Virus record (IMG/VR): IMGVR_UViG_3300042467_000189
Coordinates: 1-24,658 of that record
DNA length: 24,658 nucleotides
Strand: one strand, 5' to 3'
From: a virus
The notes under the pieces are model-generated. The model had not been told where the DNA came from. It searched no databases and saw only the letters and a list, made by a program, of their open reading frames with translations. A program made the translations under genes and the position numbers. This document shows positions 1-20,539 of this stretch, in pieces (the first letter of the stretch is position 1; the number at the start of each line of letters is the position of its first letter).

Positions 1-41
1 CACGTAAGCGCATCGAGCAGACCGAAAAAGCCCCTTTTTAA
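1..41 (+). CDS. C-terminal tail of an upstream gene (partial)
   Basis: Reading from base 3, an open frame gives twelve residues ending in EKAPF followed by TAA at 39-41. The next gene follows on the same strand after 25 bases that carry a good ribosome binding site. This fits the 3' end of a gene that starts outside the window. The piece is too short to assign a function, and a chance open frame cannot be excluded. Confidence 0.35.
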   Translation, partial: RKRIEQTEKAPF

Positions 42-66
42 TCAGAATTTTCCTTGGAGATTTGAA

Positions 67-495
67 ATGAATACAGTAAACTTTTCCAGCATGACGACCC
101 CACAATTAGTGTCGTTTTATAACCGCCACAGTACAACACCGGTCAAGCGCTTTAGCGACCGCAAAACCGCCGAAAGGCGTTGTGCTGAGGTCTTTGAGAG
201 CTTGCTCTCCCCTGTACCTACTAGCAAAGTGATTAAACAAGTGGTTGACACCTCTACCCGCCCAGTCATGAAGGACTCGCTCAAGCTCGACCGCACGATC
301 ATCTGCGTGAACACCGGCGCTACGTGGAAGAATGCGTATCAGATGTGGCGCGACAATCCTGACTGGATGACTAGCGCTCAGCAAGACCGCTTGACCGCCC
401 AGCTCTACGCCGCCGCTAAGGTCGGTGAGCAGAAGATTATTGAAATCAATGACCGCAGCTTCATGTTGGTTAACATTAAAGGAGTAAAGAAATGA
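67..495 (+). CDS. Hypothetical phage protein, 142 aa
   Basis: The start is supported by GGAGA at 56-60, six bases upstream of the ATG. The N-terminal part (about residues 9-45), with motifs such as LVSFYN and PVKRFSDRKTAERR, resembles a short segment seen in many small phage and plasmid proteins that have no known function. The C-terminal half is mixed alpha/beta with no motif I recognise. There is no signal peptide or membrane segment. The stop codon overlaps the start of the next gene (ATGA), so the two are probably translationally coupled. The gene sits just ahead of the DNA-modification cluster and may be co-transcribed with it, but nothing in the protein shows a role there. Confidence 0.75.
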   Translation: MNTVNFSSMTTPQLVSFYNRHSTTPVKRFSDRKTAERRCAEVFESLLSPVPTSKVIKQVVDTSTRPVMKDSLKLDRTIICVNTGATWKNAYQMWRDNPDWMTSAQQDRLTAQLYAAAKVGEQKIIEINDRSFMLVNIKGVKK

Positions 496-716
496 CTGAG
501 AACGCACCTGTGTTGGCGGGCATAAAGTGGTTCACGAGCGGTAAGGGTCTCGTGGGCGTAGCAGCGGTGCGCATTGAGACCGGCGACATCAAGTTCTACA
601 TCGCCCCCGCTGATGGTTTCAACGAGGTGATCGACTCTAATTTGATCATGTCACACGGAGCGCCTTTCCCCGAGGACGCCGGTTACGCATTATTTGTAAA
701 GGAAGAGTTAGCATGA
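492..716 (+). CDS. Hypothetical small protein, 74 aa
   Basis: The ATG at 492 is preceded by a strong AAAGGAG (478-484) and overlaps the stop of the previous gene. The protein is 74 residues, slightly acidic, without cysteine, membrane segment or known motif. It reads as a small beta-rich protein (VGVAAVRIETGDIKFYIAP). Its own stop overlaps the start of the PLP enzyme gene by ATGA, which makes it part of the same coupled transcript. I do not recognise the family. Its expression should track that of the modification enzymes, but an enzymatic part in the pathway is not indicated. Confidence 0.7.
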   Translation: MTENAPVLAGIKWFTSGKGLVGVAAVRIETGDIKFYIAPADGFNEVIDSNLIMSHGAPFPEDAGYALFVKEELA

Positions 717-1669
717 ACACCGTATTTCCCGACCTGTCGCTTGACCGCAACGTCGTCAAGTGGGAGCAGCACCTTGGCACTCAGACGCCGTGGGAGAATC
801 ACAAGGGCTTGTGGTTCAAGCGTGAGGATTACTTTGCGCCGCTCGGCTATAGCGGTCCCAACGGCTCTAAGATGCGCCAGCTGATTTGGTACGTCAACAA
901 GTTCCGTCAAGGTAAGACCCACATCGTGACCGGCGCTAGCATTCAGTCCCCTCAGCTGAGCATGAGCGCTATCGTGGGTGCGCACTACGGCTTGCGCGCT
1001 CGGCAGATCGTCTATAGCAAACCTGAGACTGTGTTGCGTCATGAGAACCCTCGCATTGCCTACGGCTTTGATGCTGAGTTTGAGTACGCTTCTGGTCCGT
1101 ACAACCCTATCCTGCAGCGCAAGGTTGTTGACCTGACGCAACCTACCTCGCTCGTCGTAGAGTACGGCATTACCGTGCCACATGACCGCTACCCTGAGGA
1201 CGACGTGCGTAAGTTTCACGAGGTCGGCGCTCATCAGACAGCTAACATCCCGCCCGAAGTCAAGCGCCTCATCGCCCCTGCTGGGTCGTGTAACTCGCTG
1301 ACGAGCATTATGCTCGGCTTGAGCCGTGACTCGCACAATATTGAGGAACTGTTCACGATCGGCATCGGTCCCGACAAGCGCGGCTGGATGCGTGCTCGGT
1401 TAGCCTACATCGGCATTGACATTGACAAGCTGCCGTTCAAGTGGAAGCACTTTAGCCTGCACGACAGCGGCTACAGCAAGTACAGCGATCACTTCACCGG
1501 TGAGAATTTTGACGGCATCCGCTTTCACCCGACCTACGAGGCTAAGATGTGGCGCTGGTTGACACACAACAACCAGTTAGATTATGATGACCATACCGCC
1601 TTCTGGATTGTGGGCAGCGCCCCTGACACGAAGATTGTTGAACCCTTTTACACTAGGAAGTTTTCATGA
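713..1669 (+). CDS. PLP-dependent fold-type-II enzyme (ACC deaminase/D-cysteine desulfhydrase-like)
   Basis: The 318-residue protein matches the layout of the tryptophan synthase beta-like PLP family, and best the ACC deaminase/D-cysteine desulfhydrase branch. A KRED motif (36-39) is followed by GPNGSKMRQL, where Lys53 takes the place of the PLP-binding lysine of GGNKxRKLE. GASIQSPQLS (74-83) corresponds to the GGIQSNxTR segment whose serine (Ser79 here) acts in ACC deaminase. A Gly/Ser-rich loop at 189-196 (PAGSCNSL) fits the phosphate-binding loop. The usual Asn after Ser79 is Pro, so the substrate pocket differs. The gene lies immediately upstream of thymidine-hypermodification genes and overlaps both neighbours by ATGA. 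In phages such as ViI and M6, PLP enzymes tailor amino-acid adducts on thymidine. A similar role here is inference; the exact reaction (decarboxylation, deamination or beta-elimination) is not readable. Confidence 0.72.
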   Translation: MNTVFPDLSLDRNVVKWEQHLGTQTPWENHKGLWFKREDYFAPLGYSGPNGSKMRQLIWYVNKFRQGKTHIVTGASIQSPQLSMSAIVGAHYGLRARQIVYSKPETVLRHENPRIAYGFDAEFEYASGPYNPILQRKVVDLTQPTSLVVEYGITVPHDRYPEDDVRKFHEVGAHQTANIPPEVKRLIAPAGSCNSLTSIMLGLSRDSHNIEELFTIGIGPDKRGWMRARLAYIGIDIDKLPFKWKHFSLHDSGYSKYSDHFTGENFDGIRFHPTYEAKMWRWLTHNNQLDYDDHTAFWIVGSAPDTKIVEPFYTRKFS

Positions 1670-1854
1670 GACAACAACAAGCATTCCCAAGTGAAGAATA
1701 TTACGGCATGAATTTGCGTGATTACTTCGCGGCTCAGGCTATGCAATCATTTACAGGAGACGTTGGCTGGAAATCTGACCAGAAATGGTTTGAAGAAATT
1801 GCAGAAGGCGCTTACAAGGTTGCAGACGCAATGATGAAAGCGAGGGAAGCATGA
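1666..1854 (+). CDS. Hypothetical small protein in the modification cluster, 62 aa
   Basis: The start overlaps the stop of the PLP gene (ATGA) and is preceded by AGGAAG. The stop in turn overlaps the start of the amino acid:DNA transferase gene. The 62-residue protein has an aromatic, Gln-rich N-terminus, a GMNLRDYFAAQAM segment and a C-terminal helix ending in ADAMMKAREA. Similar short proteins with the motif GMxLRDYFA are common in phages and have no known function. It may be a passenger or a small partner of the flanking enzymes; the sequence gives no way to choose. Confidence 0.65.
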   Translation: MRQQQAFPSEEYYGMNLRDYFAAQAMQSFTGDVGWKSDQKWFEEIAEGAYKVADAMMKAREA

Positions 1855-2852
1855 CCGATTATCGTCTACCTGAGAACCGCGCCGCGTATTTCTCGGCGCT
1901 GTACAAGATGAACCTTGAGCATGGTGTTATGCCAGGACTGGTTTATCTGTACATGCCTGAGTTAGCCCGCCGCTGCGAATGGGACGCTGAGCAGAAGCTC
2001 TGGTTCGCCTTTCTGAACGGCTTGACGCAGAACCCGATCACCTCGTTACGCTTGCTCAGCCGACTGCCGAGCGTGCCTCCTGCGGGCGCTCAGTTGACGC
2101 AGTTCAATGATTGGTTCAATGCTGAGTGGGATACGCTTCAGTTTGACACCGACCGCCGCTACCAGAAGCGCGACACCCTTGAAGCCATCAAGACTTACGC
2201 TAAGTTGGTCGAGGAGTTCGGCTCTCAGGAGGCAATGCTGACCGGTAAGCCTTACTCCGAGCTTTGGGATCTTGTGCGTAACCGCTACTACAGCTTCGGT
2301 CGTCTGTCATCGTTCAGCTACCTCGAGTATGTCTACCTGAACGGCTTCGGCGCTGACTGCGATGATCTGATGTTTAGCGACAAGTCGGGCAGCAAGTCAC
2401 ACCGCAACGGAATGCTGTTTTTAATCGGCAGAGACGAGCTGGTGTGGGACAAGCGCCTGCCCAACGGACAAGACGGCAGCTACCCTAAGTTCAACCTGAT
2501 GTGCGGCTTCCTCGCTGCGGAGGCTGACAAGTACATTGATAGCTTCAACGCCGCCAATCCTGGCATCGCTCCCGCGGGTCGCTTCACTATGGAGTCAAAC
2601 CTTTGCACGTTCAAGAATCATTTCTTCGGTCGTCGCTACCCAGGAGTTTACGCGGACATGGCGTGGGAGCGGATTGAGTGGGCTGAGGCGCGTGACCAAG
2701 GCGAGTACACCGAGGTGTTCAAGGACATGCGCTCACAGCTCTTGCCTGACTGGTTACGCGCTGAGTGTGAGACCGAGCCGTTGACCGTAAAACAGAAAGC
2801 CGCCGTGTTCCCTGAGACCGGTTCACCCTATAGAGCGGAGTACTTTTTATGA
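1851..2852 (+). CDS. Amino acid:DNA transferase-like protein (aGPT-Pplase2 clade)
   Basis: The 333-residue, mainly helical protein has the signature start of alpha-glutamyl/putrescinyl-thymidine pyrophosphorylase clade 2. An FxxxYKMNLEHGVMPGLVY segment (about 15-33) is followed by MPELARR and then EQKLWFAFLNGLTQNP (about 47-62). In characterised hypermodification pathways, proteins of this group displace pyrophosphate from 5-pyrophosphorylmethyl-dU in DNA and join an amino acid or polyamine to the methylene carbon. The gene is directly followed, with an ATGA overlap, by the kinase that would make that activated substrate, which supports the assignment. Length is in the normal range and no truncation is seen. 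The attached amino acid cannot be predicted; the adjacent PLP enzyme suggests an amino acid that is then altered. Confidence 0.8.
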   Translation: MTDYRLPENRAAYFSALYKMNLEHGVMPGLVYLYMPELARRCEWDAEQKLWFAFLNGLTQNPITSLRLLSRLPSVPPAGAQLTQFNDWFNAEWDTLQFDTDRRYQKRDTLEAIKTYAKLVEEFGSQEAMLTGKPYSELWDLVRNRYYSFGRLSSFSYLEYVYLNGFGADCDDLMFSDKSGSKSHRNGMLFLIGRDELVWDKRLPNGQDGSYPKFNLMCGFLAAEADKYIDSFNAANPGIAPAGRFTMESNLCTFKNHFFGRRYPGVYADMAWERIEWAEARDQGEYTEVFKDMRSQLLPDWLRAECETEPLTVKQKAAVFPETGSPYRAEYFL

Positions 2853-3427
2853 AGCATATCATCCTGCGAATTGCCGGCACGTTCGGCTCGGGCAAGACCA
2901 CCGCGATGCGCGGCTTCTTCAACTACCCGCACACAGTTTTGATGAGCGGTAAAAAGATCGCCGGTTATCAAGTCGACGCCAGCTCTGCCGGAATCAGCGA
3001 GCCGATCTTTGTGGTTGGCAAGTATGACAACACGTGCGGCGGCACAGACGCCATCAAGACACAGGCTGAGATTGCCGAGAAGATCCTGAAAGCACACCCC
3101 CATGGCCATGTGTTATACGAGGGCGCTTTAGTGTCTGCGAGCGGACTCGCCGGTCAGGTGACGCAAGCCATTCACCCTACCGGCTGCGATGTGTACGCCT
3201 TTCTTGACACTCCGCAAGACCTCTGCGTTGAGCGGGTTAAGGGGCGTCGCCTCGCCGCCGGCAACGACAAAGAGTTTGACCCGAAGAACCTGATTGACAA
3301 GTTTGAGTCGGTTGTCAACTGCTACAAAAACCTGCGCAAAGAAGGCACGTACGACGTGCGTCTGATTGACCACACAGACCCGCACCCCGCGCTAGTAGAA
3401 ATCATAAAGGAGTATGAAAATGCGTGA
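2849..3427 (+). CDS. 5-hydroxymethyl-dU DNA kinase, P-loop kinase domain
   Basis: This 192-residue P-loop kinase has a Walker A motif GTFGSGKTT at residues 10-18. A GKYDNTCGGTDA segment (57-68), typical of phage 5-hmdU DNA kinases, follows. Next come a Walker B-like strand VLYEGAL (88-94) and a lid region FLDTP...ERVKGRR (118-134). The expected reaction is ATP-dependent phosphorylation, or pyrophosphorylation, of the 5-hydroxymethyl group of hmdU already in phage DNA. The start overlaps the previous stop (ATGA), and the stop lies eight bases inside the next gene. Some homologues carry a helical domain fused to the kinase; here that domain appears to be a separate downstream protein. Alternative nucleotide or gluconate-type kinases share the fold, but the GGTDA motif and the neighbours favour the DNA kinase. 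Confidence 0.85.
   Translation: MKHIILRIAGTFGSGKTTAMRGFFNYPHTVLMSGKKIAGYQVDASSAGISEPIFVVGKYDNTCGGTDAIKTQAEIAEKILKAHPHGHVLYEGALVSASGLAGQVTQAIHPTGCDVYAFLDTPQDLCVERVKGRRLAAGNDKEFDPKNLIDKFESVVNCYKNLRKEGTYDVRLIDHTDPHPALVEIIKEYENA
3406..3412 (+). promoter_or_regulatory. Ribosome binding site deciding the start at 3420
   Basis: AAAGGAG ends only one base before an ATG at 3414 but seven bases before the in-frame ATG at 3420. The latter spacing is normal for initiation, so 3420 is taken as the start of the downstream gene. Confidence 0.7.
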
Positions 3428-4340
3428 CAATTGCCCTTACCCTATGCCGACGCCGGAGACAGTTTGCTCGATGGCGGGTCTGCTTTACTTCATCTGGGAG
3501 CGGGAGGCTATCCGCATCGCTCGTGAGAACGGTCACAGCGCTCCGTGGACTAAAGACCCTGTACTCGCTAAGTACAAGTTCACCAACATCCACCGCTGCG
3601 ATGATCGCGTTTCGGTTTGGGTGATTGATCGGTTGATTGAGCCAGCGACCGCTCGAGGCGATGAGCACTTGTGGTTCACGCTGTTGATCGCCCGCCTGAT
3701 CAACTGGCCGCCCACGCTACAGGCGCTGCTTGACAAGGGGGTCATCCCCTGCGCTCCTGAAAACTTTGATGCTGACTTGTTTGAGCACACGCTTGAGCGT
3801 ATCAAGAAAGACGGCAACAAGGTTTACTCCGGCGCGTACATGCTCTACCCGACTAAGATGGAGCCAGGAGGCAACAAGTCTAAGGCGGTGGCAAAGTACA
3901 TCATCGGCAGCGCGGTTGAGAACGCTGACAATATTAGCGCGGCGCTGTGGAACGATGGCGGGATGATGTCTATTGAGCGGTTCGTAGCTGAACTGAGCAA
4001 GTGCTTCGGCATCAGCACCTTTATTGCCGGACAGGTCGCCGCTGACTTGACGTACACCGGCATGGACGTTGAAGACTTGTTCACTTACGCGCCTATCGGT
4101 CCTGGTAGCTCGCGTGGGCTAAACTATTTGCTCGGCAAGCAGCCGTTCGCCACGTGGAAGCAGAAAGAATTCAATGCCGAGCTGAGCAACATCTTCAGCG
4201 AGATCGTTGATAAATTAGAAATCGTAGACATGACGCTGCATGATGTGCAGAACTGCATGTGCGAGTTCAGCAAGTACTGCCGCGCCGTACTCGGCGAGGG
4301 TAAACCTAAAACAACCTACCAACCAGAAACGGAGTTCTAA
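3420..4340 (+). CDS. Helical aGPT-Pplase/5-hmdU DNA kinase helical-domain protein
   Basis: From the ATG at 3420 the protein has 306 residues and is almost entirely alpha-helical. The N-terminal block carries the pattern of the helical domain found with 5-hmdU DNA kinases and thymidine pyrophosphorylase-like proteins. It contains FIWEREAIRIAREN, then APWTKDPVLAKYKFTN and HRCDDRVS. The C-terminal part (LNYLLGKQ, then a long helix) has no separate motif I know. It overlaps the kinase gene by eight bases and is followed after one base by the TS homologue, so all three should be made together. The likely role is binding or flipping modified thymidine, or catalysing adduct formation beside the kinase. 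The split between kinase and helical protein is seen in the sequence; the division of labour is inference. Confidence 0.72.
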   Translation: MRDNCPYPMPTPETVCSMAGLLYFIWEREAIRIARENGHSAPWTKDPVLAKYKFTNIHRCDDRVSVWVIDRLIEPATARGDEHLWFTLLIARLINWPPTLQALLDKGVIPCAPENFDADLFEHTLERIKKDGNKVYSGAYMLYPTKMEPGGNKSKAVAKYIIGSAVENADNISAALWNDGGMMSIERFVAELSKCFGISTFIAGQVAADLTYTGMDVEDLFTYAPIGPGSSRGLNYLLGKQPFATWKQKEFNAELSNIFSEIVDKLEIVDMTLHDVQNCMCEFSKYCRAVLGEGKPKTTYQPETEF

Positions 4341-4341
4341 A

Positions 4342-5379
4342 ATGGAGTTAGTCGTACGTAACGTCAATCAGGCTTTCAGTGAGATATTCTGGAAGCTCAA
4401 AGTGCTCAACCTTCAACCTGAGCAGACCCGCAATGGTCCCGCTATCGTGTACCCTGAGATGGTGACCACGGTCTACAAGTGCCCGTCTGAGCGCGTGCTG
4501 TTTCACAAGGGTCGTGATGCTAACCCGATCTTTCACCTCATGGAGTCGATCTGGATGCTGGCAGGGCGTAATGACGTTGCGTTCCTACAGCAGTTCAACA
4601 AGCGCATGGTCGAGTTCAGCGACGACGGCAAGACATTTAACGCCGCCTATGGTCACCGCTGGCGCAAGCACTTCGGTCATGACCAGCTTGACGAGGTCAT
4701 TAGAACCCTGCGCCGCGACCCTAACAGCCGTCAGGCGGTTGTTCAGATCTGGGACGACGCTGATTTGAACAAGAAGACCAAGGACAAGGCGTGCAACATG
4801 CAGGTCATCTTTGACACTCGCGGCGGTCGTCTGAACATGACGGTGATCAACCGGTCTAACGATATCTGGTGGGGTGCGTACGGCGCTAACGCTGTGCATT
4901 TCAGTTTCCTGCAGGAGTTTGTAGCCGCTGCGATAGCGCACAGAATCGGCGTGTACCGTCAGGTGAGTAATAATTTCCACTTATACACAGAACTTTATAA
5001 CGCGAACAAATACCTCGTGACCCCGCCGGACGCTAACGACTATGACCATTACTCTAACGGCTCAGTGCGCCCCCTCCCGATCATGCTGAACGGCGAGTAC
5101 AAACTGTTCCTAGCGGAGTGTGAGATGTTCTGCCACGACCCGTACAATGAGCGCATTCATTATGCTAACCCTTTCTTTGAGCACATCGCACGCCCCATGG
5201 CTATGATCAGTCGCGTACGCAAGATTCACGCAGGTGACGGTCGTAGCTATGCCGCTAAGATCCGCGCCGAGGACTGGCGTCGCGCAGCGTTTGATTGGAT
5301 TGACCGCCGTGACCAAGCACGCAAAATCAAAGAGGAAGATGACGAGATAAATGAGCTGCGGAAGGCTGAGAAAAAATAA
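4342..5379 (+). CDS. Thymidylate synthase homologue, probable dUMP hydroxymethylase
   Basis: The 345-residue start at 4342 is chosen because the ATG follows the previous stop by one base and has GGAG at 4331-4334. The in-frame extension to 4240 would overlap the previous gene. TS-superfamily landmarks are present. They are the helix HLMESIWMLAG (65-75), an RDPNSRQAVV phosphate-site region (125-134), the catalytic Cys151 in KACNMQVIF, and RSND (171-174). GAYGANAVH follows, with Asn183 near the pyrimidine-recognising asparagine, and then FHLY (212-215). An Asn rather than Asp at that site fits a uracil substrate, as expected for an enzyme forming 5-hydroxymethyl-dUMP from dUMP with methylenetetrahydrofolate. 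Context in a 5-hmdU pathway favours hydroxymethylase over ordinary thymidylate synthase. The charged C-terminal tail (about 325-345) looks like an extension. Confidence 0.82.
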   Translation: MELVVRNVNQAFSEIFWKLKVLNLQPEQTRNGPAIVYPEMVTTVYKCPSERVLFHKGRDANPIFHLMESIWMLAGRNDVAFLQQFNKRMVEFSDDGKTFNAAYGHRWRKHFGHDQLDEVIRTLRRDPNSRQAVVQIWDDADLNKKTKDKACNMQVIFDTRGGRLNMTVINRSNDIWWGAYGANAVHFSFLQEFVAAAIAHRIGVYRQVSNNFHLYTELYNANKYLVTPPDANDYDHYSNGSVRPLPIMLNGEYKLFLAECEMFCHDPYNERIHYANPFFEHIARPMAMISRVRKIHAGDGRSYAAKIRAEDWRRAAFDWIDRRDQARKIKEEDDEINELRKAEKK

Positions 5380-5380
5380 T

Positions 5381-5410
5381 TTGCGTGCTGTGAGAAATGT
5401 GAGCTATAAT
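5381..5410 (+). promoter_or_regulatory. Sigma70-type promoter upstream of the HD nucleotidase
   Basis: TTGCGT (5381-5386) and a consensus TATAAT (5405-5410) are separated by 18 bases. They sit directly after the TS homologue and about 33 bases before the GTG start of the next gene. This is the clearest promoter in the left arm and would start a second + strand transcript covering replication genes. It is read from sequence only. Confidence 0.65.
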
Positions 5411-5419
5411 TGCTCACAT
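5397..5419. promoter_or_regulatory. Perfect inverted repeat over the -10 box (candidate operator)
   Basis: ATGTGAGC and GCTCACAT form a perfect 8-base inverted repeat with a 7-base centre that contains the TATAAT box. A protein dimer bound here would block the promoter. The half-sites resemble those of the lac operator (TGTGAGC/GCTCACA) but are spread seven bases apart. The spacing does not fit CRP. Confidence 0.55.
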
Positions 5420-5442
5420 AACTGCTAACTGGAGAACTTTTT

Positions 5443-5931
5443 GTGAAACATACCCTCGATTTTATTCTGGCTGGAAGCGAAGTGAAGCGCTATCACACAG
5501 TCACCACGCTCGTGTCTGAGACCGTCGGTCATCATTCACACGGCGTTGCTATGCTGTGCTTGATGTTTGACCCGATGGCGAGCCGTCAACTGCTAATGGC
5601 TGCGCTGTTCCATGATTTGGCTGAACACCAAACCGGCGACATCCCCTCCCCTGCTAAGCGTGAGTTCGGCATCGGCGGCAAAGTTGACGAATTAGAGTTG
5701 CGCCTTATGAGCGCTGCCGGAATCGTCACACCGCACCTCTCACCTGAAGACAAGAGAACTCTCAAGCTCGCCGACGTAGCACAGGGTGCGCTGTTTTGCG
5801 CTCGGGAGATCTCACTCGGCAACAAACGCATGCGCCGCGTATTTGACCGCTACATCAGCTACGCGGAAGAGCTGATTCTGGTCGGTCGCGAGCGCGAAAT
5901 TTTCAACATGATCAAGGAATACGCAGCATGA
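5443..5931 (+). CDS. HD-domain 5'-deoxynucleotidase (YfbR-like)
   Basis: The 162-residue protein starts at GTG 5443, with GGAG at 5431-5434. HD-superfamily ligands are visible. RYHTVTTL (16-23) is followed by GHHSHGVAML (29-38), then FHDLAEHQTGDIP (56-68), which supplies the His-Asp pair and Glu61, and finally KLADVAQG with Asp111. Phage and bacterial relatives (YfbR type) usually have EHSWGVA, so the Trp is His here. The family removes the 5' phosphate from deoxynucleoside monophosphates. Beside a dUMP hydroxymethylase homologue, a plausible job is to lower dTMP or another dNMP so that hmdU enters DNA; this is inference. It has its own promoter with an operator-like repeat, and its stop overlaps the DUF3310 gene. 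Confidence 0.8.
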   Translation: MKHTLDFILAGSEVKRYHTVTTLVSETVGHHSHGVAMLCLMFDPMASRQLLMAALFHDLAEHQTGDIPSPAKREFGIGGKVDELELRLMSAAGIVTPHLSPEDKRTLKLADVAQGALFCAREISLGNKRMRRVFDRYISYAEELILVGREREIFNMIKEYAA

Positions 5932-6200
5932 GCGCGGCAAATCAAAAACAGATCGGTGGTAACCACTACAAGCACGGCGGCGAGGAACACTGGGACCGCG
6001 TCAATCGCTTGCGCCTGAATTACTTTCAAGCGGCGGCTACAAAGTACATTGAGCGTTGCTACCTGAAGGGTAACACTGTTCAAGACCTGCAGAAAGCCGT
6101 TCACTTCCTTGAGAAGCTGATTGAGATCGAGCAGCGTAAGGCTGATGCGGCTTGTGGTGACGGTAGCGAGCCTACCAGCGGCTATGTCAATCAAGACTGA
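5928..6200 (+). CDS. DUF3310 domain protein (T7 gp1.7-related)
   Basis: The 90-residue protein has the DUF3310 pattern: QIGGNHYK near the N-terminus, then a helix with LNYFQAAATKYIERCYLKG, DLQKAVHFLEKLIEIE and a short tail. The domain is widespread in phages. In T7 it is part of gp1.7, a nucleotide kinase acting on dTMP and dGMP, though this protein is less than half that length and has no P-loop. The start overlaps the previous stop by ATGA, and its last codons overlap the polymerase start. It may act in nucleotide metabolism with the HD nucleotidase, but function is not established by sequence. Confidence 0.85.
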   Translation: MSAANQKQIGGNHYKHGGEEHWDRVNRLRLNYFQAAATKYIERCYLKGNTVQDLQKAVHFLEKLIEIEQRKADAACGDGSEPTSGYVNQD

Positions 6201-8043
6201 CATGGGTACTTGGGTGTTTGATACTGAAACTCTGCCTAACCGGACTCTGTTCTGCGCAAAGAACATTGAGACCGGCGAGTGGTTTGACTTGTGGCGTCAT
6301 TCTGACGACGCCCCTGCTCGCCTCACTCGGTTTGTGCAGCAGTCAGACAGCACGTTCATCGGCTTCAACAGCAAGTCGTTTGACAACGCGGTTGTGGCGG
6401 CGTTCTGCCTCGGTAGGACTGAGATTGAGATCAAGCGGATTGCTGATGACATCATCACGAACCGCCTGTCGCCTTGGAACGCGATGCGTAAGCACAACCT
6501 GCGTGACATCATCATTGATGACATTGACTTGATTGAGGTCGCTCCCTCGTTTGTAGGTCTGAAAGCCTACGGCGCTCGCATGCATATGCCTAAGTTGCAG
6601 GACATGCCGATCGCTCACGACGAGATGATCGCCCCTGATCAAGAGCCGATGCTACTTGAGTATTGCCACAATGACGTTGACACAACTGCTGAGCTGTTGA
6701 ATCAACTCGAAGGCGAGCTTTTGCTGCGCGTTGAGATGAGCCGCCGGTACGGAGCTGACATGCGTAGCAAGTCTGACTCACAAATGGCGGAACAGGCGTA
6801 CATCACCAGCATGGGTCTCAAACGTCAAGAGAATGAGATCCCTAAGACGGTCAGATATACGCCTCCGGCATTCCTGAAGTTTATGGATGCCGAGCTACAG
6901 GGTCTGCTTGATCGTGTCTCTGAGCACGTGTTCAATATGAACCCTGCCACCGGACACGTCCAGCTTCCAGACTTTCTCGGGCAGCGGACGATTAAATTTG
7001 GCACCGGCGAGTACCAGCTCGGCGTGGGCGGCATTCACAGCGTGCATGATAAACAGGTGTGCCACATCGCCGGTGATGATCACATGTGCGACCTCGACGC
7101 GGCTTCGTTCTACCCGAGTATCATTCTTGAGTGCGGGTTTGTGCCCGCCGCGCTCGGCAAGCGCTTCGTTGAGGAGTACCGCAAGATTTACGAGCGCCGC
7201 CTCGAGGCAAAGCGCAACGGCGACAAGATCACTGACGCGACGCTGAAGATTTCGCTGAACGGCACGTTCGGCAAGCTCGCCAGCCGTTACTCGGTGTTGT
7301 ACTCGCCGGACTTGATGTTGGCGGTGACGCTGACTGGGCAGTTCACCCTGCTCATGTTGATTGAGTGGCTTGAGCGGGCAGGGGCTTTGACCTTGTCAGC
7401 TAATACCGACGGCATCGCGATCAAGTTCACAAAGGAACAGAAGGAGCTAGTTGAGAAGGTTGTCAATAAGTTTAGTGAGGTGTCCGGTTTCGTGTTTGAG
7501 TACACGCCGTATCGCGCCCTCGCTATGAAGGACGTAAACAATTACATTGCGGTCAAGCCTGACCGGAAGCTGAAAGTCAAGGGCATCTATGCGCCGCTCT
7601 CTCTTAAGAAAAACCCAACGGCTCAGGTATCGTCAGATGCTGTCGGCGCGTGGTTGGCAAGCGGTACTCCGTTCGAAGAGACGATTAAGTCTGCTCCGTT
7701 TACGCACTTCATTAGCGCAAGGAATGTCACTGGCGGTGGCCAGCAAGCTGGGGTTTACCTTGGCAAAGTCGTACGGTGGTATCAATCAACGGACACTGGC
7801 GGCGAGCCTATCAAGTATGCTACGAATGGCAACAAAGTCCCTAAGACCGAAGGCGCTAAGGCGTGCATGACCGTGCTTGACAAGGTCGCTCACCCTGCTG
7901 ATCTCGACTATGAATGGTATAACAAAGAGGCGATAAAAATCGCCATAGCGGTTGGCTGCTCGCAGTACCTCACCCCTGAGCAACTCGCTTTAGTGGCACC
8001 ACCACCTAAGAAAACTAGGAAAGTTAAAAATGGAACACGGTAA
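6184..8043 (+). CDS. Family B DNA polymerase with 3'-5' exonuclease
   Basis: Start 6184 gives 619 residues with an N-terminus close to the first exonuclease motif; ATG 6202 is an alternative, and neither has a strong ribosome site. Exonuclease motifs are ExoI VFDTET (11-16), ExoII GFNSKSFDN (60-68) and ExoIII YCHND (160-164). Polymerase motifs are A DAASFYPS (305-312), B KISLNGTFG (355-363) and C ANTDG (406-410). The motif C form is NTDG rather than DTDS; the metal-binding second Asp (409) is kept. The gap between motifs A and B is short and shows no room for the TPR1 insertion of protein-primed polymerases. This should be the replicative polymerase of the phage and would have to accept hmdUTP if the modification pathway works as proposed. 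Confidence 0.92.
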   Translation: MSIKTDMGTWVFDTETLPNRTLFCAKNIETGEWFDLWRHSDDAPARLTRFVQQSDSTFIGFNSKSFDNAVVAAFCLGRTEIEIKRIADDIITNRLSPWNAMRKHNLRDIIIDDIDLIEVAPSFVGLKAYGARMHMPKLQDMPIAHDEMIAPDQEPMLLEYCHNDVDTTAELLNQLEGELLLRVEMSRRYGADMRSKSDSQMAEQAYITSMGLKRQENEIPKTVRYTPPAFLKFMDAELQGLLDRVSEHVFNMNPATGHVQLPDFLGQRTIKFGTGEYQLGVGGIHSVHDKQVCHIAGDDHMCDLDAASFYPSIILECGFVPAALGKRFVEEYRKIYERRLEAKRNGDKITDATLKISLNGTFGKLASRYSVLYSPDLMLAVTLTGQFTLLMLIEWLERAGALTLSANTDGIAIKFTKEQKELVEKVVNKFSEVSGFVFEYTPYRALAMKDVNNYIAVKPDRKLKVKGIYAPLSLKKNPTAQVSSDAVGAWLASGTPFEETIKSAPFTHFISARNVTGGGQQAGVYLGKVVRWYQSTDTGGEPIKYATNGNKVPKTEGAKACMTVLDKVAHPADLDYEWYNKEAIKIAIAVGCSQYLTPEQLALVAPPPKKTRKVKNGTR

Positions 8044-8398
8044 TCAACGAACTGTCTACGTAGTACAAGTAGACAACAATAAAGACCTCTCGGACGCGAA
8101 GAAGTACGGCGCGTTGCGTGCGGTCTTCGGTAACCCGCGCAAGCCCTACGACACGATGAGCATGATCGCTAAGGCGCGTCGTGTCATGTCTGAATGGCAA
8201 AATGGTGACCATTTGTTGATGGTAGGCGACCCCACACTGTGTGCAGTATGCATGGTGGTGGCTAGCGAGCAGGACGACATTATCAATGTGCTGAGCTGGG
8301 ATCGTAACTCGTTCTCGTACATGCCTCAGCGTTGGGACTTTGGTCAGATGGGTCTCGACTACGACGATTTTGAAGCAGCGGATGACAAACCGCTTTAA
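8030..8398 (+). CDS. Hypothetical protein of a widespread phage family, 122 aa
   Basis: The gene overlaps the polymerase end by 14 bases and has AGGAAAG upstream. The protein begins with YVVQVDNNKDLSDAKKYG, followed by a helix and a hydrophobic stretch GDHLLMVGDP (59-68), then IINVLSWDR. Small phage proteins with the same plan (YVVQ at the start, a central LLxxGDP/GNP strand, LxWDR late) are often found next to replication genes and have no assigned function. It is soluble and acidic at the C-terminus. I infer only that it belongs to the early/replication transcript. Confidence 0.7.
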   Translation: MEHGNQRTVYVVQVDNNKDLSDAKKYGALRAVFGNPRKPYDTMSMIAKARRVMSEWQNGDHLLMVGDPTLCAVCMVVASEQDDIINVLSWDRNSFSYMPQRWDFGQMGLDYDDFEAADDKPL

Positions 8399-8417
8399 CC
8401 CACGAAAGGAGAAAAAT

Positions 8418-9158
8418 ATGTCAAACTGGCAAGACGCCTTGAGAAAAGGTAAACAGGATGTACCGCCCCGTATTTGCATTTACGGGGGTCACGGTATCGG
8501 TAAATCCACCTTGGCTAGCAAGTTCCCAGCGCCGATTTTCATCAGCACTGAGGACGGTCTAGACTCGTTGGATGTTACCAGCTTCCCGCGTGCAACTAAG
8601 GTTGAGGACGTGGTCGAGAACATCAAGACCCTCATCAAAGAGGAACATGAGTTCAAGACCGTCGTAATTGACTCGGTTGATTGGCTCATCGAGCCGCTCA
8701 TCGTGAGCAACGTGGAATCGTCACACGACGCAAAAGACCTCGCCTACGGTAAAGGTCAGATGCTGGTTGCTGAGGAGTTCCGCGAGATCCTGCAGGGGTT
8801 GGACGTGCTGCGCGTAAAGCGCCGTATGAACATCGTGCTGATCGCTCACGCTGCTGTGGTGAAGTTTGAAGACCCGCGCACCGAACCCTACGACCGCTAC
8901 CAGCCGAAGCTGCCTAACCGCTGCAACGCGCTGCTGCAGGAGTGGGCTGATGTGCTTGCGTTTGCCGCATTCAAGGTGATCATTCGCAAGTCTGACTCCG
9001 GTTTCAATAACCAGAAGAACCGAGGCGTAACGACAGGTGAGCGCTTGCTCCACTTTGTTGAGAACCCCGCGTTCGCTGCTAAGAACCGGTATACCTGTCC
9101 CGAAGAGATTGAGATGTCCATCGAAAATCTCGAAAAATTGATTCCCATTGCTAAATAA
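8418..9158 (+). CDS. Sak4-like RecA-fold ATPase (single-strand annealing/recombinase)
   Basis: The start at 8418 follows a strong AAAGGAG, and the in-frame upstream extension would overlap the preceding gene. The 246-residue protein has Walker A GGHGIGKST (23-31) soon after a short N-terminus, and Walker B TVVID (81-85). A strand MNIVLIAHAAV follows near 134-145. This matches the AAA_24/Sak4 group, short RecA-like ATPases of phages that work in DNA annealing and recombination together with an SSB-like protein. The next gene encodes just such a protein (DUF669), which is the usual pairing. No oligomer or DNA-binding extension is seen beyond the core. Confidence 0.85.
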   Translation: MSNWQDALRKGKQDVPPRICIYGGHGIGKSTLASKFPAPIFISTEDGLDSLDVTSFPRATKVEDVVENIKTLIKEEHEFKTVVIDSVDWLIEPLIVSNVESSHDAKDLAYGKGQMLVAEEFREILQGLDVLRVKRRMNIVLIAHAAVVKFEDPRTEPYDRYQPKLPNRCNALLQEWADVLAFAAFKVIIRKSDSGFNNQKNRGVTTGERLLHFVENPAFAAKNRYTCPEEIEMSIENLEKLIPIAK

Positions 9159-9174
9159 CTGAAGGAGCATTACC

Positions 9175-9675
9175 ATGGCTAAATTTGGATTTGACGTCTC
9201 TGACGTCGCCCCCGACACCGGTACTACCGGTGGTTCTTACGACCCCATCCCTGATGGTGAGTACATTCTGAAAGCGCTCGACGCTGAAGAGAAAACAACT
9301 AGCGCTGGTACGGGTTCGTACATCAAAGCGAAGTTTGAGGTCGTCAAGGGTGAGTTCGCCGGTCGCTTGATCTGGCAAAACTTCAACATCAACAACCCTA
9401 GCGAGAAGGCACAGCGTATCGGTCGTCAACAGCTGGTGGCTTGGTCTACCGCGTGTGGCAAGCCCGATGCCGACGACACTGACAAGCTGCTTGAGAAGCC
9501 TTTCCGCGCAGCGGTCAGCATTGAGAAGGGTACTGGTGGTTATTCTGACAGTAACCGCATCAAAGCGTTCTTGTTTGATCAGGAAGCCGCCACGCCAGCT
9601 AAGGCTGCACCGGCTAAAGCCGCCGCTCCTAAGGCAGCAGCCCCCGCCGCTAAGTCCGCTAACCCTTGGGACTAA
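9175..9675 (+). CDS. DUF669 single-stranded DNA-binding-like protein
   Basis: The 166-residue protein starts at 9175 behind AAGGAG. The core (about 1-138) is beta-rich, with PDGEYILKA, YIKAKFEVVKGEF and RLIWQNFNI, which is the pattern of DUF669 phage proteins. Residues 140-162 are a low-complexity Ala/Pro/Lys linker made of repeated APAKAA-like units. The last residues NPWD give an aromatic-acidic tip like that of many SSBs. It probably coats single-stranded DNA and works with the Sak4-like ATPase just upstream. The Ala/Pro linker is likely flexible and may vary in length between relatives. Confidence 0.85.
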   Translation: MAKFGFDVSDVAPDTGTTGGSYDPIPDGEYILKALDAEEKTTSAGTGSYIKAKFEVVKGEFAGRLIWQNFNINNPSEKAQRIGRQQLVAWSTACGKPDADDTDKLLEKPFRAAVSIEKGTGGYSDSNRIKAFLFDQEAATPAKAAPAKAAAPKAAAPAAKSANPWD

Positions 9676-9678
9676 ACC

Positions 9679-10515
9679 ATGGTAGCCATACCGCCCCGAC
9701 CAGAGCAGCAGATCATCAATAGGGTGTACGCTGCTATTGAGAAAGAGAAGTCAAACCCTGACCTCTACCTCGGGCGGCTTGGCTCGTCTTTCATAGGCGA
9801 AGAATGCATACGACAAATCTGGCTTGACTGGCGCGGGTTCGCCCGCGAAGGTTTTGAGGGACGTATGCTTCGCCTATTTGAGACGGGACACCTGCAAGAA
9901 GAGCGGATCGTAGCTGATTTGCGCCGCGCAGGGTTTGCCGTCTGGGATAAGCGGGAGGACGGTCGTCAGTTTGAGTTCATAGATGACACAGGTCACTTTA
10001 TTACTAAGGTGGACGGAGTCATCAAAGATGTGCCAGACTGCGACACACCTCACGTGCTCGAGGTCAAGACGCACAACAAGAACAGCTTCAGCGGAGTCGT
10101 CAAGAAGGGTATTCAGGAGTCCAAGCCGTTACACTATGCTCAGGTGCAAATCAGCATGGCGCTCGGCGGGTTCACCCGCGCCCTCTACGTCGCAGTCTGC
10201 AAAGACGATGAACAGTTCTACGTTGAGCGCGTCAAGGAAGACAAGAGCGAGCAAAAGAAACTGCAACAGAAAATCATCAAGCTGACCGAGGCGCGTCTGC
10301 GCCCTGCCGGTATAAGTGATGACGGTAGCAGCTTCGGGTGTAAGTTTTGTAGCATGAAGGCGGTCTGCACTCGTGAGGCTGAACCCTTACGTCACTGCCG
10401 CACATGCACTATGGCCACGCCGACCCCAGCAGGGACTTGGACGTGTGAACTCAACAAAGAAACTCTCAGCATGGACGCTCAACGAGCTGGCTGTGAGAAT
10501 TACGAGGCTTTATGA
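9679..10515 (+). CDS. PD-(D/E)XK nuclease, Cas4/RecB-like, with Fe-S-type cysteines
   Basis: The 278-residue protein has the nuclease core in order. LGSSFIGEEC (35-43) is followed by GHLQEERIV with a conserved Glu, then KVDGVI (Asp112), HVLEVK (Glu128, Lys130) and HYAQVQ (Gln155). Cys43 and the C-terminal set Cys221-x2-Cys224-x5-Cys230 reproduce the four-cysteine iron-sulfur staple of Cas4 and AddB-type nucleases. A second group, Cys240, Cys243, Cys256 and Cys272, could hold zinc. The likely task is a 5'-3' or end-resecting exonuclease feeding the Sak4/DUF669 pair. The start follows the previous stop by three bases with no strong ribosome site. Its stop overlaps the RuvC-like gene. No cas1 or CRISPR array is present, so a role in adaptation is not suggested. 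Confidence 0.85.
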   Translation: MVAIPPRPEQQIINRVYAAIEKEKSNPDLYLGRLGSSFIGEECIRQIWLDWRGFAREGFEGRMLRLFETGHLQEERIVADLRRAGFAVWDKREDGRQFEFIDDTGHFITKVDGVIKDVPDCDTPHVLEVKTHNKNSFSGVVKKGIQESKPLHYAQVQISMALGGFTRALYVAVCKDDEQFYVERVKEDKSEQKKLQQKIIKLTEARLRPAGISDDGSSFGCKFCSMKAVCTREAEPLRHCRTCTMATPTPAGTWTCELNKETLSMDAQRAGCENYEAL

Positions 10516-10988
10516 TTACAATCGGTATTGATCCAGGACTCAGTGGCGCTATCGGCGTTCTTCGTGATGGCGTGTACGTAGCCGTGGAAGATATGCCGGT
10601 CGTAGCCAAAGGCTCTGGTGCTGTGAAGAACGAAGTCGACCCCGCTGGGTTAATCACCCTGCTCAAGAAGCACGTCCCCGCTGAGGAGGCGGTATGCGTT
10701 GCGCTTGAGCGGGTGAACGCCATGCCTGGACAAGGGTCGTCTTCTATCTTCAGCTTAGGGGACAGCTTCGGCTCTGCCCGAGCCGCTATTGCGGGGTGTC
10801 GGTTTGAGACCGTCTACATGACTCCTTCGCAATGGAAGAAACATTTCAAACTGACCAGCGACAAAGAAATGAGCAGGGCGCTCGCGATTCGCATGTTCCC
10901 TGAAGCGCCGTTGAATCTGAAAAAGCATTCTGATCGTGCAGAGGCGTTGCTCATGGCTCGTTGGCTTTACGAGACGAGGTACAAATGA
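10512..10988 (+). CDS. RuvC-like Holliday junction resolvase
   Basis: This 158-residue RNase H-fold protein has the RuvC acidic residues in place: Asp7 in GIDPGLSGAIG, Glu66 in VALERV, and Asp141/Glu144 in KKHSDRAEALLMA. The loop GQGSSSIFSLGDSFG (73-87) and TPSQWKKHF (104-112) are typical of RuvC-like resolvases in phages. It would cut Holliday junctions or branched replication intermediates before packaging. The start overlaps the stop of the nuclease gene (ATGA), and its end overlaps the next small gene, so it is part of the recombination transcript. Confidence 0.88.
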   Translation: MITIGIDPGLSGAIGVLRDGVYVAVEDMPVVAKGSGAVKNEVDPAGLITLLKKHVPAEEAVCVALERVNAMPGQGSSSIFSLGDSFGSARAAIAGCRFETVYMTPSQWKKHFKLTSDKEMSRALAIRMFPEAPLNLKKHSDRAEALLMARWLYETRYK

Positions 10989-11224
10989 TTGAGACTCAGA
11001 TTAAGGGTATACCCTGCCAAGTCGAAATGACCGGCGGGTATTACCAGAGACCAGACTACAACACGTGGGCTAGCGACTGGGATTATTACGGCGGCTGGTT
11101 TGACGTGGAGTTTGAGGTGTATGACCGTAAAGGTTATAAGGCAAAATGGCTTGAGAAGAAGATGACCGCTGACGACGAGAAGCGTATCATCAGAGAACTA
11201 ACTGAAAACGCAGGAGAACATTAA
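10985..11224 (+). CDS. Hypothetical protein, 79 aa
   Basis: The start at 10985 is chosen because it overlaps the stop of the RuvC-like gene as ATGA; an in-frame ATG at 10961 would cut further into that gene. The protein is rich in Tyr and Trp (residues 15-47, with WDYYGGWFDVEFEVYDRKG) and then turns into a charged helix. It looks like a small beta-sheet protein. No family is recognised. It is followed by a TAATG overlap with the next gene. Confidence 0.65.
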   Translation: MIETQIKGIPCQVEMTGGYYQRPDYNTWASDWDYYGGWFDVEFEVYDRKGYKAKWLEKKMTADDEKRIIRELTENAGEH

Positions 11225-11406
11225 TGGAAAAATTTGAACCCGCATGCCCTTGGCATATTCGAGTCGGTGACTTGTTCATCGCTCCTGGTCGCATACCTAA
11301 CACCGGCACGGTCTGGATTGGTGAAGTGGAAGGCGGCGAAGGTGGAGAGTTCAAGACTGAAGACCTCGCTGAAGTGCTGCGCAAATTTTATAACGAAAAC
11401 TTCTGA
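11224..11406 (+). CDS. Hypothetical protein, 60 aa
   Basis: A TAATG overlap links it to the previous gene, GGAGAA lies upstream, and its stop overlaps the next start (TGATG). The 60-residue protein has a GDLFIAPG strand and a Gly/Glu-rich loop VEGGEGGEF, ending in a short helix. This is consistent with a small SH3-like beta barrel, but no known motif is present. It is one of four small genes closing the left arm. Confidence 0.6.
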   Translation: MEKFEPACPWHIRVGDLFIAPGRIPNTGTVWIGEVEGGEGGEFKTEDLAEVLRKFYNENF

Positions 11407-11813
11407 TGGCTAAACTCGCCCCCACTCGGGTCAAGAAGCAAGTCGGTCTCAATCCGGTTGCTCAGCTGATGGCGCGTCAAACTATGCGTAAGGCTATCCT
11501 TGATCAAAAGATCCAGCTCTACATGCGTGACGAAGGCGCTCCTTGTGTTGACTTCTGCGTGCCGATGTGGATGACGTTTCGCGCCTTAGTTGGTGCGGCA
11601 GCAGCTGACCCGAAAGTGGGTGTTGAGAACTATGAAGTGAGAATCATTCGCGGGGCTATTTCCGCGCTTGAGCAGATGATAACTGATAACGAATACCGCC
11701 GCGTAAATATTATTTCACTTGAGACAGCGCTTGACTGCGCCTACGCACTAGTTAACAAGGTTAACTCCGTGCTGTTCAATCAAGAGTGGAATAGGCTCGC
11801 GGGCGGTGCTTAA
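11406..11813 (+). CDS. Hypothetical helical protein, 135 aa
   Basis: It starts in a TGATG overlap with the previous stop. The 135 residues are mostly helical, with a basic N-terminus (KLAPTRVKKQVG) and several amphipathic helices, including one with LETALDCAYALVNKV. There is no membrane segment and no nucleotide-binding motif. The basic start could contact nucleic acid, but that is only a guess. I do not recognise the family. It ends in an overlap with the last gene of the arm. Confidence 0.65.
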   Translation: MAKLAPTRVKKQVGLNPVAQLMARQTMRKAILDQKIQLYMRDEGAPCVDFCVPMWMTFRALVGAAAADPKVGVENYEVRIIRGAISALEQMITDNEYRRVNIISLETALDCAYALVNKVNSVLFNQEWNRLAGGA

Positions 11814-12013
11814 TGCCGTGGGCGTATATTCGCTCACTGCTCGGACCAGGACTTCACTGGGACAGAACCCAGCGAGAGTTGTTAGACGCTATAGCTCGCG
11901 CTGATCGCGAGGGGCAACCTGACGCCGCTGATCACATTCGCATCATACTCAGGTTGCGTAACCGCGTGCTCATGGACGTTGAGCAAAAAGAAACCCCGCC
12001 GGAGCGGGGTTAA
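11813..12013 (+). CDS. Hypothetical protein, 66 aa; 3' end forms the terminator stem
   Basis: This is the last gene of the rightward arm. Its ATG overlaps the stop of the previous gene (TTAATG). The 66-residue protein is a charged helical polypeptide, with LLDAIARADREGQPDAADHIR in the middle. Its last residues TPPERG and the stop codon are encoded by the hairpin that separates the two convergent arms. No function is recognised. The overlap of coding sequence and terminator is a compact arrangement common in phages. Confidence 0.6.
   Translation: MPWAYIRSLLGPGLHWDRTQRELLDAIARADREGQPDAADHIRIILRLRNRVLMDVEQKETPPERG
11985..12011 (-). terminator. Rho-independent terminator between convergent arms
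   Basis: AACCCCGC (11992-11999) pairs with GCGGGGTT (12004-12011) around a CGGA loop, an 8-base GC-rich stem. Read on the - strand it is followed by a TCTTTTT tract, so it should stop leftward transcription of the structural genes. In the + direction only TT and then AAAA follow, so it is weaker that way. Confidence 0.85.
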
Positions 12014-20311: not shown

Positions 20312-20539
20312 TTAAGACAGCGACTGCGCAAATCGCTCAGCCCAGTCACGCCAATCATCAAAGTCGTAAGGTAGAGGAAAGTTCCTACCTAGCGACGTAT
20401 TATTTAAAAACTGCATAGCCCAGTTCTGCCAGTCATCACCGTCCAACCGACTGAGCGCCCCGTAGCTGTCCAGATCGAGCGCGATCTGATCAGCCCAGTC
20501 ATGTAGCGACATGTACGAGGGGCGCGTGATCGTGGTCAT
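20312..20539 (-). CDS. Small Trp-rich repeat protein, 75 aa
   Basis: The start overlaps the stop of the hub protein gene (ATGA type). The 75 residues hold three related units: LHDWADQIALDL (12-23), DDWQNWAMQFLNN (35-47) and DDWRDWAERFAQSL (61-74). Each pairs Asp-Trp with a short amphipathic helix. Very small proteins of this type are often found between tail-hub and internal protein genes of podoviruses. It is probably a minor virion protein or assembly factor; no function is recognised. Confidence 0.7.
   Translation of the reverse strand: MTTITRPSYMSLHDWADQIALDLDSYGALSRLDGDDWQNWAMQFLNNTSLGRNFPLPYDFDDWRDWAERFAQSLS

Follow-up and report, generated by a model that had tools for sequence, protein, structure and literature searches.

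A compact thymidine-hypermodification operon, probably of the ViI type, in a phage group seen in metagenomes

The operon and its proposed pathway

The window analyzed here is the whole of a 24,658-base entry from an uncultivated virus (IMG/VR record IMGVR_UViG_3300042467_000189, classed there as linear and probably a fragment); its positions 713-5379 hold a compact six-gene operon (Table 1) which very likely serves the hypermodification of thymidine through 5-hydroxymethyl-deoxyuridine (hmdU). The product is probably 5-(2-aminoethoxy)methyl-deoxyuridine (5-NeOmdU), made by a pathway of the type found in phage ViI. The original prediction had described six overlapping or near-touching genes with a role in thymidine hypermodification; the layout is confirmed by the frames, families, codon pattern and recurring gene order, and the functional reading is well supported by profile matches, by a hydroxymethylase signature and by the fold match of the transferase to a 5-phosphomethyl-deoxyuridine (5-PmdU) glycinyltransferase. 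It had also proposed that a pyridoxal phosphate (PLP) enzyme resembling 1-aminocyclopropane-1-carboxylate (ACC) deaminase might lead to an undescribed base, which is a claim that has to be dropped: ViI carries the same PLP family (phrog_3650 finds the ViI protein at E = 5e-243, and the two enzymes are 31% identical over 369 columns) together with homologues of the transferase, the kinase, its helical protein and the thymidylate synthase (TS) homologue. The base is therefore probably a known one, made in a phage group for which no description of it was found in the openly licensed literature on thymidine hypermodification and uncultivated phages.

We infer the following order of steps, along with the amino acid, the decarboxylation, the final base and the biological role. 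The TS homologue would produce 5-hydroxymethyl-dUMP, the triphosphate of which would be copied into phage DNA while an HD nucleotidase lowers the dTMP pool; the kinase and its helical domain would then phosphorylate the hydroxymethyl group of the base in DNA, giving 5-PmdU at some sites. The amino acid:DNA transferase (ADDT) would exchange this phosphate for an amino acid, most likely serine attached through its hydroxyl, and the PLP enzyme would decarboxylate the attached serine to 5-NeOmdU; this cationic base would block many host restriction enzymes. For ViI, Lee et al. (2018, 2022) reportedly found serine as the amino acid and a decarboxylase as the PLP enzyme.

5-NeOmdU is described from the DNA of ViI and CBA120 in PMC6449724 and PMC11721090, the latter placing it at about 40% of thymidines. 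The modification genes of the Ackermannviridae phage PP35, as listed in PMC6336734, are a dUMP hydroxymethyltransferase, two kinases, a PLP enzyme and two aGPT-PPlases; the window set corresponds to that listing minus one kinase. The core kinds of ViI and the Ackermannviridae are likewise those of the window (dUMP hydroxymethylase, a probable 5-hmdU DNA kinase, helical domain, ADDT and phrog_3650 PLP enzyme), whereas the ViI genes are scattered at about 37-39 kb, 88 kb, 141 kb and 151 kb of a 157 kb genome and those of the window form one operon, in a group with contigs of up to about 61 kb. The ViI PLP frame is also longer and has an insert (424 aa compared to 318 aa). The window thus presents the ViI pathway as one operon, probably near-minimal at five enzymes; the phage group itself is known to us only from metagenomic contigs. 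With its genes side by side, the pathway could be transplanted whole into a laboratory strain, which would test what suffices for 5-NeOmdU.

The genes co-occur in other viruses. A scan of viral sequences in IMG/VR with the ADDT as query found 85 stretches that encode a relative, and among the best 80 of the 85, which were kept, most loci preserve the same gene order. Where a locus is testable, a homologous gene lies downstream of the ADDT gene for the kinase in 75/77, the helical protein in 74/76, the TS homologue in 73/74, the HD protein in 70/72 and the DNA polymerase in 64/66 loci; the PLP gene lies at most 4.5 kb upstream of the ADDT gene in 54 of the 68 testable loci (12 of the 80 are untestable).

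Enzymes of the proposed pathway and competing readings

The TS homologue matches PF00303 (E = 1.5e-22) and phrog_5131 (E = 6e-105); among solved structures it is closest by sequence to CMP 5-hydroxymethylases (E = 2.9e-23), compared to 4.8e-12 for the best thymidylate synthase. Aligned with E. coli ThyA, it retains the catalytic cysteine (C151), the uracil-reading asparagine (N183) and the equivalents of Arg126, Arg166, Ser167 and Asp169; Asn152 occupies the position of ThyA His147, and nothing aligns to Trp80. The cysteine, the uracil-reading asparagine and the asparagine in place of His147 agree in M6, ViI, SPO1, W14 and Montesquieu and in 16/16 aligned relatives (17 were picked, one of which lacks a frame of 300 aa). 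No PVAI closing end is aligned either, a softer point because the C-terminal columns align poorly. By this active-site signature the protein is a predicted dUMP hydroxymethylase, and assignment as a canonical thymidylate synthase was dropped on the same three features (His147 to Asn152, no Trp80 counterpart, no aligned PVAI end). A YfbR-like HD gene follows the TS gene, as gp59 does in M6, and the HD 5'-deoxynucleotidase is likely the dTMP-lowering partner of the pathway. It is highly improbable that the operon belongs to ordinary nucleotide metabolism, with a true thymidylate synthase and the rest unrelated to DNA modification; databases label such genes thymidylate synthase and PHROGs gives the kinase a packaging name, but this reading is opposed by the hydroxymethylase signature, by ADDT and HMUDK_hel profile scores above their cut-offs and by the 5-PmdU glycinyltransferase fold of the ADDT.

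The original prediction would have been refuted by profiles placing the transferase and kinase outside their families, which did not occur: the ADDT, helical and TS proteins fall within their families, while the kinase scores slightly under its Pfam cut-off (PF18748, E = 5.7e-6, 26.4 bits, cut-off 27). The kinase matches phrog_800 (E = 2e-16), a family common to ViI Vi01_061 and M6 gp54, and is 32% identical to M6 gp54 over 146 columns; a sequence search of the PDB with the kinase returned nothing informative. The helical protein matches PF18723 (E = 1.8e-42, 146 bits, cut-off 25) and has no match in the PDB by sequence. PHROGs, the ViI record and the M6 record all name these 5-hmdU DNA kinases 'terminase small subunit'; the name of phrog_800 looks like a propagated mislabel, since the ViI protein in it reaches 386 bits with the model of 5-hmdU DNA kinases.

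The ADDT matches PF18724 (E = 4.6e-18, 66.2 bits, cut-off 26.2). Against the PDB a single-sequence search gave no match and the ADDT profile gave chance matches only; an AlphaFold2 model was built from 36 sequences of the window group, with a mean predicted local distance difference test score (pLDDT) of 91.8. The best solved match of this model is PUGT, the 5-phosphomethyl-dU glycinyltransferase of phage PaMx11 (PDB 8z2m, 8z2n; matched entry 8z2n), with a Foldseek probability of 1.00 and an E value of 4.7e-3 (no Foldseek match falls under 0.001), and a VIA Z of 16.4 over 250 residues at 4.2 Å. The runners-up, at Z 8-10, are queuine salvage enzymes and DNA glycosylases; as unrelated helical models can give a best Z of about 14, the gap to these next rows outweighs the Z value itself. 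The title of the PUGT entry fits a transferase substrate that is the kinase product, 5-phosphomethyl-dU. PUGT is by that title a glycine enzyme, is 12% identical to the ADDT and groups by sequence with M6 gp51. Residues N186, E248, C252, K255, Y263 and P299 are identical in six reference enzymes (ViI, Cygsa01, Zemanar, Montesquieu, M6, W14), while the motifs DTD99-101, GRLS150-153 and GS.S.RNG180-187 are intact only in the first four of these. The ADDT tree (58 of 111 rows, near-copies excluded, together with the window and references) also places the window enzyme on one side with the same four, apart from M6 gp51 and W14.

The PLP enzyme matches phrog_3650 (E = 7e-74) and no Pfam family over its cut-off; its nearest reference is the ViI homologue, and the same family finds Montesquieu at 1e-31. 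Aligned with the D-cysteine desulfhydrase DcyD, it has the Schiff-base lysine K53 in an NGSK motif, and S79-P80-Q81 lies at the S-N-H position of DcyD, presumably the substrate loop; S-P-Q is also found in ViI. In the 97 sequences of the group, which include second loci on one contig, 64 positions that are at least 97% conserved have the same residue in four phage enzymes (ViI, Vibrio phage 207E48.1, Escherichia phage LHE287, Aeromonas phage TSW001); K53 and S79-P80-Q81 belong to them. A single-sequence search of the PDB gave no match. The structural model (mean pLDDT 80.5, dropping to 52 for residues 41-50, directly ahead of K53) is a fold-type II enzyme, the nearest solved folds being an ACC deaminase homologue and D-cysteine desulfhydrase, both at Z 19.8. 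These folds, together with weak NCBIfam matches (XcbE, ACC_deam), would favor a lyase or deaminase of that kind, acting on free or attached amino acids and leaving an arm that is a carbonyl or an intact amino acid; such a function is nevertheless unlikely, as the S-N-H of DcyD is S-P-Q in the window enzyme and in ViI, the curated equivalog scores are far below their cut-offs (ACC_deam 19.7 compared to 392 bits; the second 15.5 compared to 469 bits), and the gene recurs close upstream of the ADDT gene in the loci counted above. Membership of the ACC deaminase and D-cysteine desulfhydrase families was rejected on the same loop and scores. Decarboxylation of a base-attached amino acid is the preferred function for the PLP enzyme.

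Several points weigh against 5-NeOmdU as the product. The ADDT is remote from those enzymes whose amino acid is known to us: it is 30% identical to that of ViI, and nearer to Zemanar (36%) and Montesquieu (37%), whose amino acid is not known to us; the branches of the reference enzymes are very long, which makes the placement unsure. As the ADDT is nearer to actinophage enzymes than to that of ViI, its substrate may differ, and attachment of another amino acid, with a PLP-tailored base not yet described as the result, is a minority reading of some weight, which is also favored by the separation of the window group from ViI in the tree. Standing against it are the three ADDT motifs shared with ViI and the PLP enzyme, which is nearest to that of ViI and has the 64 positions, active-site loop included, in common with four ViI-like enzymes, as would be expected if the same adduct is handled. 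The PLP families are not cleanly separate: the window enzyme weakly matches phrog_7093, the family of M6 gp52 (2.9e-5), and phrog_3650 also reaches M6 (3e-6) and 3 of 14 control bacteria. The kinase, at 0.6 bit below its Pfam cut-off, is the weakest placement of the set, and is about equidistant from the M6 and ViI kinases (46 and 44 bits). Finally, ViI reportedly has two P-loop kinases, whereas one such kinase is seen in the window and a scan of 20 window proteins showed no further nucleotide kinase.

The 5-NedU pathway of the Pseudomonas phage M6 (Yuavirus) requires a radical S-adenosylmethionine (SAM) isomerase. Of 21 contigs of 53-61 kb searched, which may be incomplete and include one with the same operon as the window (G001), none gave a match to PF04055 or a homologue of the M6 radical SAM protein gp53; the gene is absent from ViI as well, and M6 itself was matched in the same search. 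The M6 pathway was rejected for the window on this absence, on the separate branches of the M6 transferase (gp51) and PLP enzyme (gp52), and on the lack of any blastp match of window proteins to gp51 or gp52 at E 0.01. M6 is nonetheless the nearest reference for the TS homologue (44%), the helical protein (30%), the HD protein (36%) and the DUF3310 protein (43%); its kinase and helical genes are adjacent, and its HD hydrolase and DUF3310-type protein precede the DNA polymerase in the same order as in the window, although the window polymerase has no blastp match in the M6 stretch compared. The kinase is tied between M6 and ViI; ViI is the nearest reference for the PLP enzyme, while for the ADDT it comes after Zemanar and Montesquieu. 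Because kinship is mixed in this way and the ViI genes are scattered, the best reading of the window operon is a compacted hybrid whose front-end genes are M6-like and whose back-end genes are ViI-like; it shows parts of both kinds mixed in one operon. Glutamicibacter phage Montesquieu resembles the window in having an ADDT relative followed directly by a phrog_3650 PLP enzyme, with aGPT-Pplase1 and TS genes about 3.5-5 kb away; it differs in being an actinophage with another gene order, and its ADDT relative is unmatched by PF18724.

Distribution and variation among relatives

A 53.6 kb contig (G001, locus L002) has the operon too, and its proteins share 99.7-100% identity with those of the window. 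Of the 14 loci counted as having no PLP gene upstream of the ADDT gene, two (L022, L045) are artefacts of the coordinate rule and do have the gene, three (L014, L015, L078) have it on the other strand of the same stretch, and nine have none. The single kinase artefact concerns an open reading frame boundary (L031); the true misses are L067 for the kinase, helical protein, TS homologue, HD protein and polymerase, L074 for the helical protein, and L078 for the HD protein and polymerase. One IMG/VR contig of 101,830 bases (G018, locus L042) fuses two related phage genomes, both of which have a modification operon of their own. A scan of bacterial genome contigs with two peptide patterns matched 89 stretches, none of which encodes a relative (distant ones may escape the patterns), and nothing about the host could therefore be learned.

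The kinase gene occurs as two divergent alleles, about 48% identical; among 82 loci (one per contig, with near-copies such as L038, L039, L041 and L042 retained) 50 are type I, 31 type II and one neither. The type I allele is marked by the sequence IAGTFGSGKTTAMR. A relative with a type II kinase (L006, kinase at 7753-8331) is 48% identical to the window in the kinase, compared to 93% in the PLP enzyme, 85% in the ADDT, 91% in the helical protein and 88% in the TS homologue; its kinase is 80 and 82% identical to those of L118 and L050, where the ADDT and helical genes are at 58-68%. On quick trees of the ADDT and helical proteins (62 of the 82 loci, after removal of identical helical sequences, loci without ADDT or helical frames and the untyped kinase) the kinase label changes 9 times, compared to a mean of 19 on shuffling, and none of 500 shuffles is as low. 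The label is thus clustered, yet does not form one clade; as well-supported branches force at least three changes in the ADDT tree or four in the helical tree, otherwise alike operons seem to have swapped kinase genes at least twice. A restriction study (PMC6449724) suggests that the TG/TC context of modification may depend on the kinase, and the exchange of alleles makes it testable whether the kinase determines the sequence pattern of hypermodification.

The PLP gene is missing beside the ADDT gene in L029, L037, L038 (with near-copies L039, L041 and L042), L046 and L059, which form one clade in the ADDT tree once near-copies are left out; two contigs of genome-like length (G016, 60.8 kb, and G023, 57.5 kb) contain no PLP gene by protein or profile search. 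The PLP tree itself comprises 44 of 97 rows, near-copies excluded, together with the window and references. In L044, which lies outside this clade, only 22 residues match the end of the PLP enzyme (C-terminus, E 5e-7), and the profile does not see them; by coordinate conversion this match is about 230 nt before the ADDT gene, where the gene end is expected. If the pathway is read correctly, PLP-less phages should stop at the amino-acid stage, and they provide a natural test of the last step. A gene of about 250 aa with a Rossmann/methyltransferase-like appearance stands between the PLP and ADDT genes in 11 contigs (L064 at 9237-10004, L052-L057, L065-L067 and L113), with distant homologues in L069 and L070; the copies of L064 and L069 have no Pfam or PHROG match, and that of L064 has a weak PADLOC mad2 match.

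It can tentatively be proposed, as a rather speculative reading, that the operon is a modular kit. Given the suggestion in PMC6449724, kinase alleles would be swapped to change which thymidines are modified, in the manner of restriction specificity subunits, and loss of the PLP gene (leaving an O-seryl base) or gain of the Rossmann/methyltransferase-like enzyme would change the arm; the relatives would then carry several undescribed thymidine derivatives and site patterns. A different set is encoded in L069 (1135-4777) and L070; in L069 it comprises a Tet/JBP-type oxygenase (PF12851), a methyltransferase-like protein, an ADDT and a P-loop kinase (PF18751). In these two, 5-hmdU is probably made by oxidizing T in DNA, not by a TS homologue.

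Layout and genomic setting

Table 1. Features of the operon and its surroundings, in window coordinates.
Position	Strand	Feature	Basis
67-716	+	Two function-unassigned frames, 142 aa (67-495) and 74 aa (492-716)	Profile scans, blastp
713-1669	+	Fold-type II PLP enzyme, proposed decarboxylase of base-attached amino acid	phrog_3650, ViI homologue, fold
1666-1854	+	62-aa accessory protein	Matches C-terminal part of phrog_2201
1851-2852	+	Amino acid:DNA transferase (ADDT, aGPT-Pplase2)	PF18724, tree, fold model
2849-3427	+	Probable P-loop 5-hmdU DNA kinase, type I allele	PF18748 (sub-threshold), phrog_800
3414-4340	+	5-hmdU DNA kinase helical domain (aGPT-Pplase1), kinase partner	PF18723; 30% to M6 gp55
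4342-5379	+	Predicted dUMP hydroxymethylase (TS superfamily)	PF00303, phrog_5131, active-site signature
5443-5931	+	YfbR-like HD 5'-deoxynucleotidase	PF12917, E = 3e-10; M6 gp59, 36%
5928-6200	+	DUF3310 protein	PF11753, just under cut-off
about 6187-8043	+	DNA polymerase, start of replication module with DUF3310	

The PLP, 62-aa, ADDT and kinase genes overlap one another by 4 nt at each of their three junctions, the kinase and helical genes overlap by 14 nt, and a 1-nt gap separates the helical and TS genes. The longest TS frame begins at 4240; homology and a CGGAG motif set the start given in Table 1. A relative (L008) is without the 62-aa frame, and in the other five genes substitution relative to it is dominated by third codon positions: the percentages of codons changed at positions 1, 2 and 3 are 3, 3 and 27 for the PLP gene, 11, 9 and 31 for ADDT, 4, 3 and 20 for the kinase, 9, 4 and 31 for the helical gene, and 3, 1 and 22 for TS. 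Due to this bias and the recurring gene order, the six-gene set is considered real and not a product of chance. The 62-aa protein was rejected as a part of the pathway; with a blastp homologue in just 3 of the 80 loci, it is not core.

The unit is probably wider than the six genes, taking in the frames from 67 onward and then the HD nucleotidase, DUF3310 and DNA polymerase genes. The 142-aa and 74-aa frames overlap by 4 nt, as do the 74-aa frame and the PLP gene, and both frames are probably on the same transcript as the operon; blastp homologues are found in 58 and 15 of the 80 loci, respectively. A promoter and terminator scan gave 11 promoter-like sites (7.0 expected) and 18 terminator-like sites (11.6 expected), on neither of which weight is placed. 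The main frames from 67 to about 11.8 kb are all on the plus strand, and virion and lysis genes occupy the minus strand beyond 12 kb. Window positions 1-12000 have no nucleotide similarity to phage records, and known defence models matched none of 7 window proteins.

A partial overlap in gene content is described in the excerpted text of PMC9599517 for HTVC023P-type pelagiphages (podoviruses), which carry TS and aG/PT-PPlase1 genes and in some cases a 5'-deoxynucleotidase near the DNA polymerase; they differ from the window in that no PLP enzyme or aGPT-PPlase2 is named there. The virion protein at 20536-22371 links the window group with the Caulobacter phages GB2A, RW, RLK and KcrB (54.5% over 83%) and, more remotely, with several podovirus-like records. 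A virion protein of HTVC027P, which we take to belong to the HTVC023P type, is distantly like that of the window (23% over 42% of the query).

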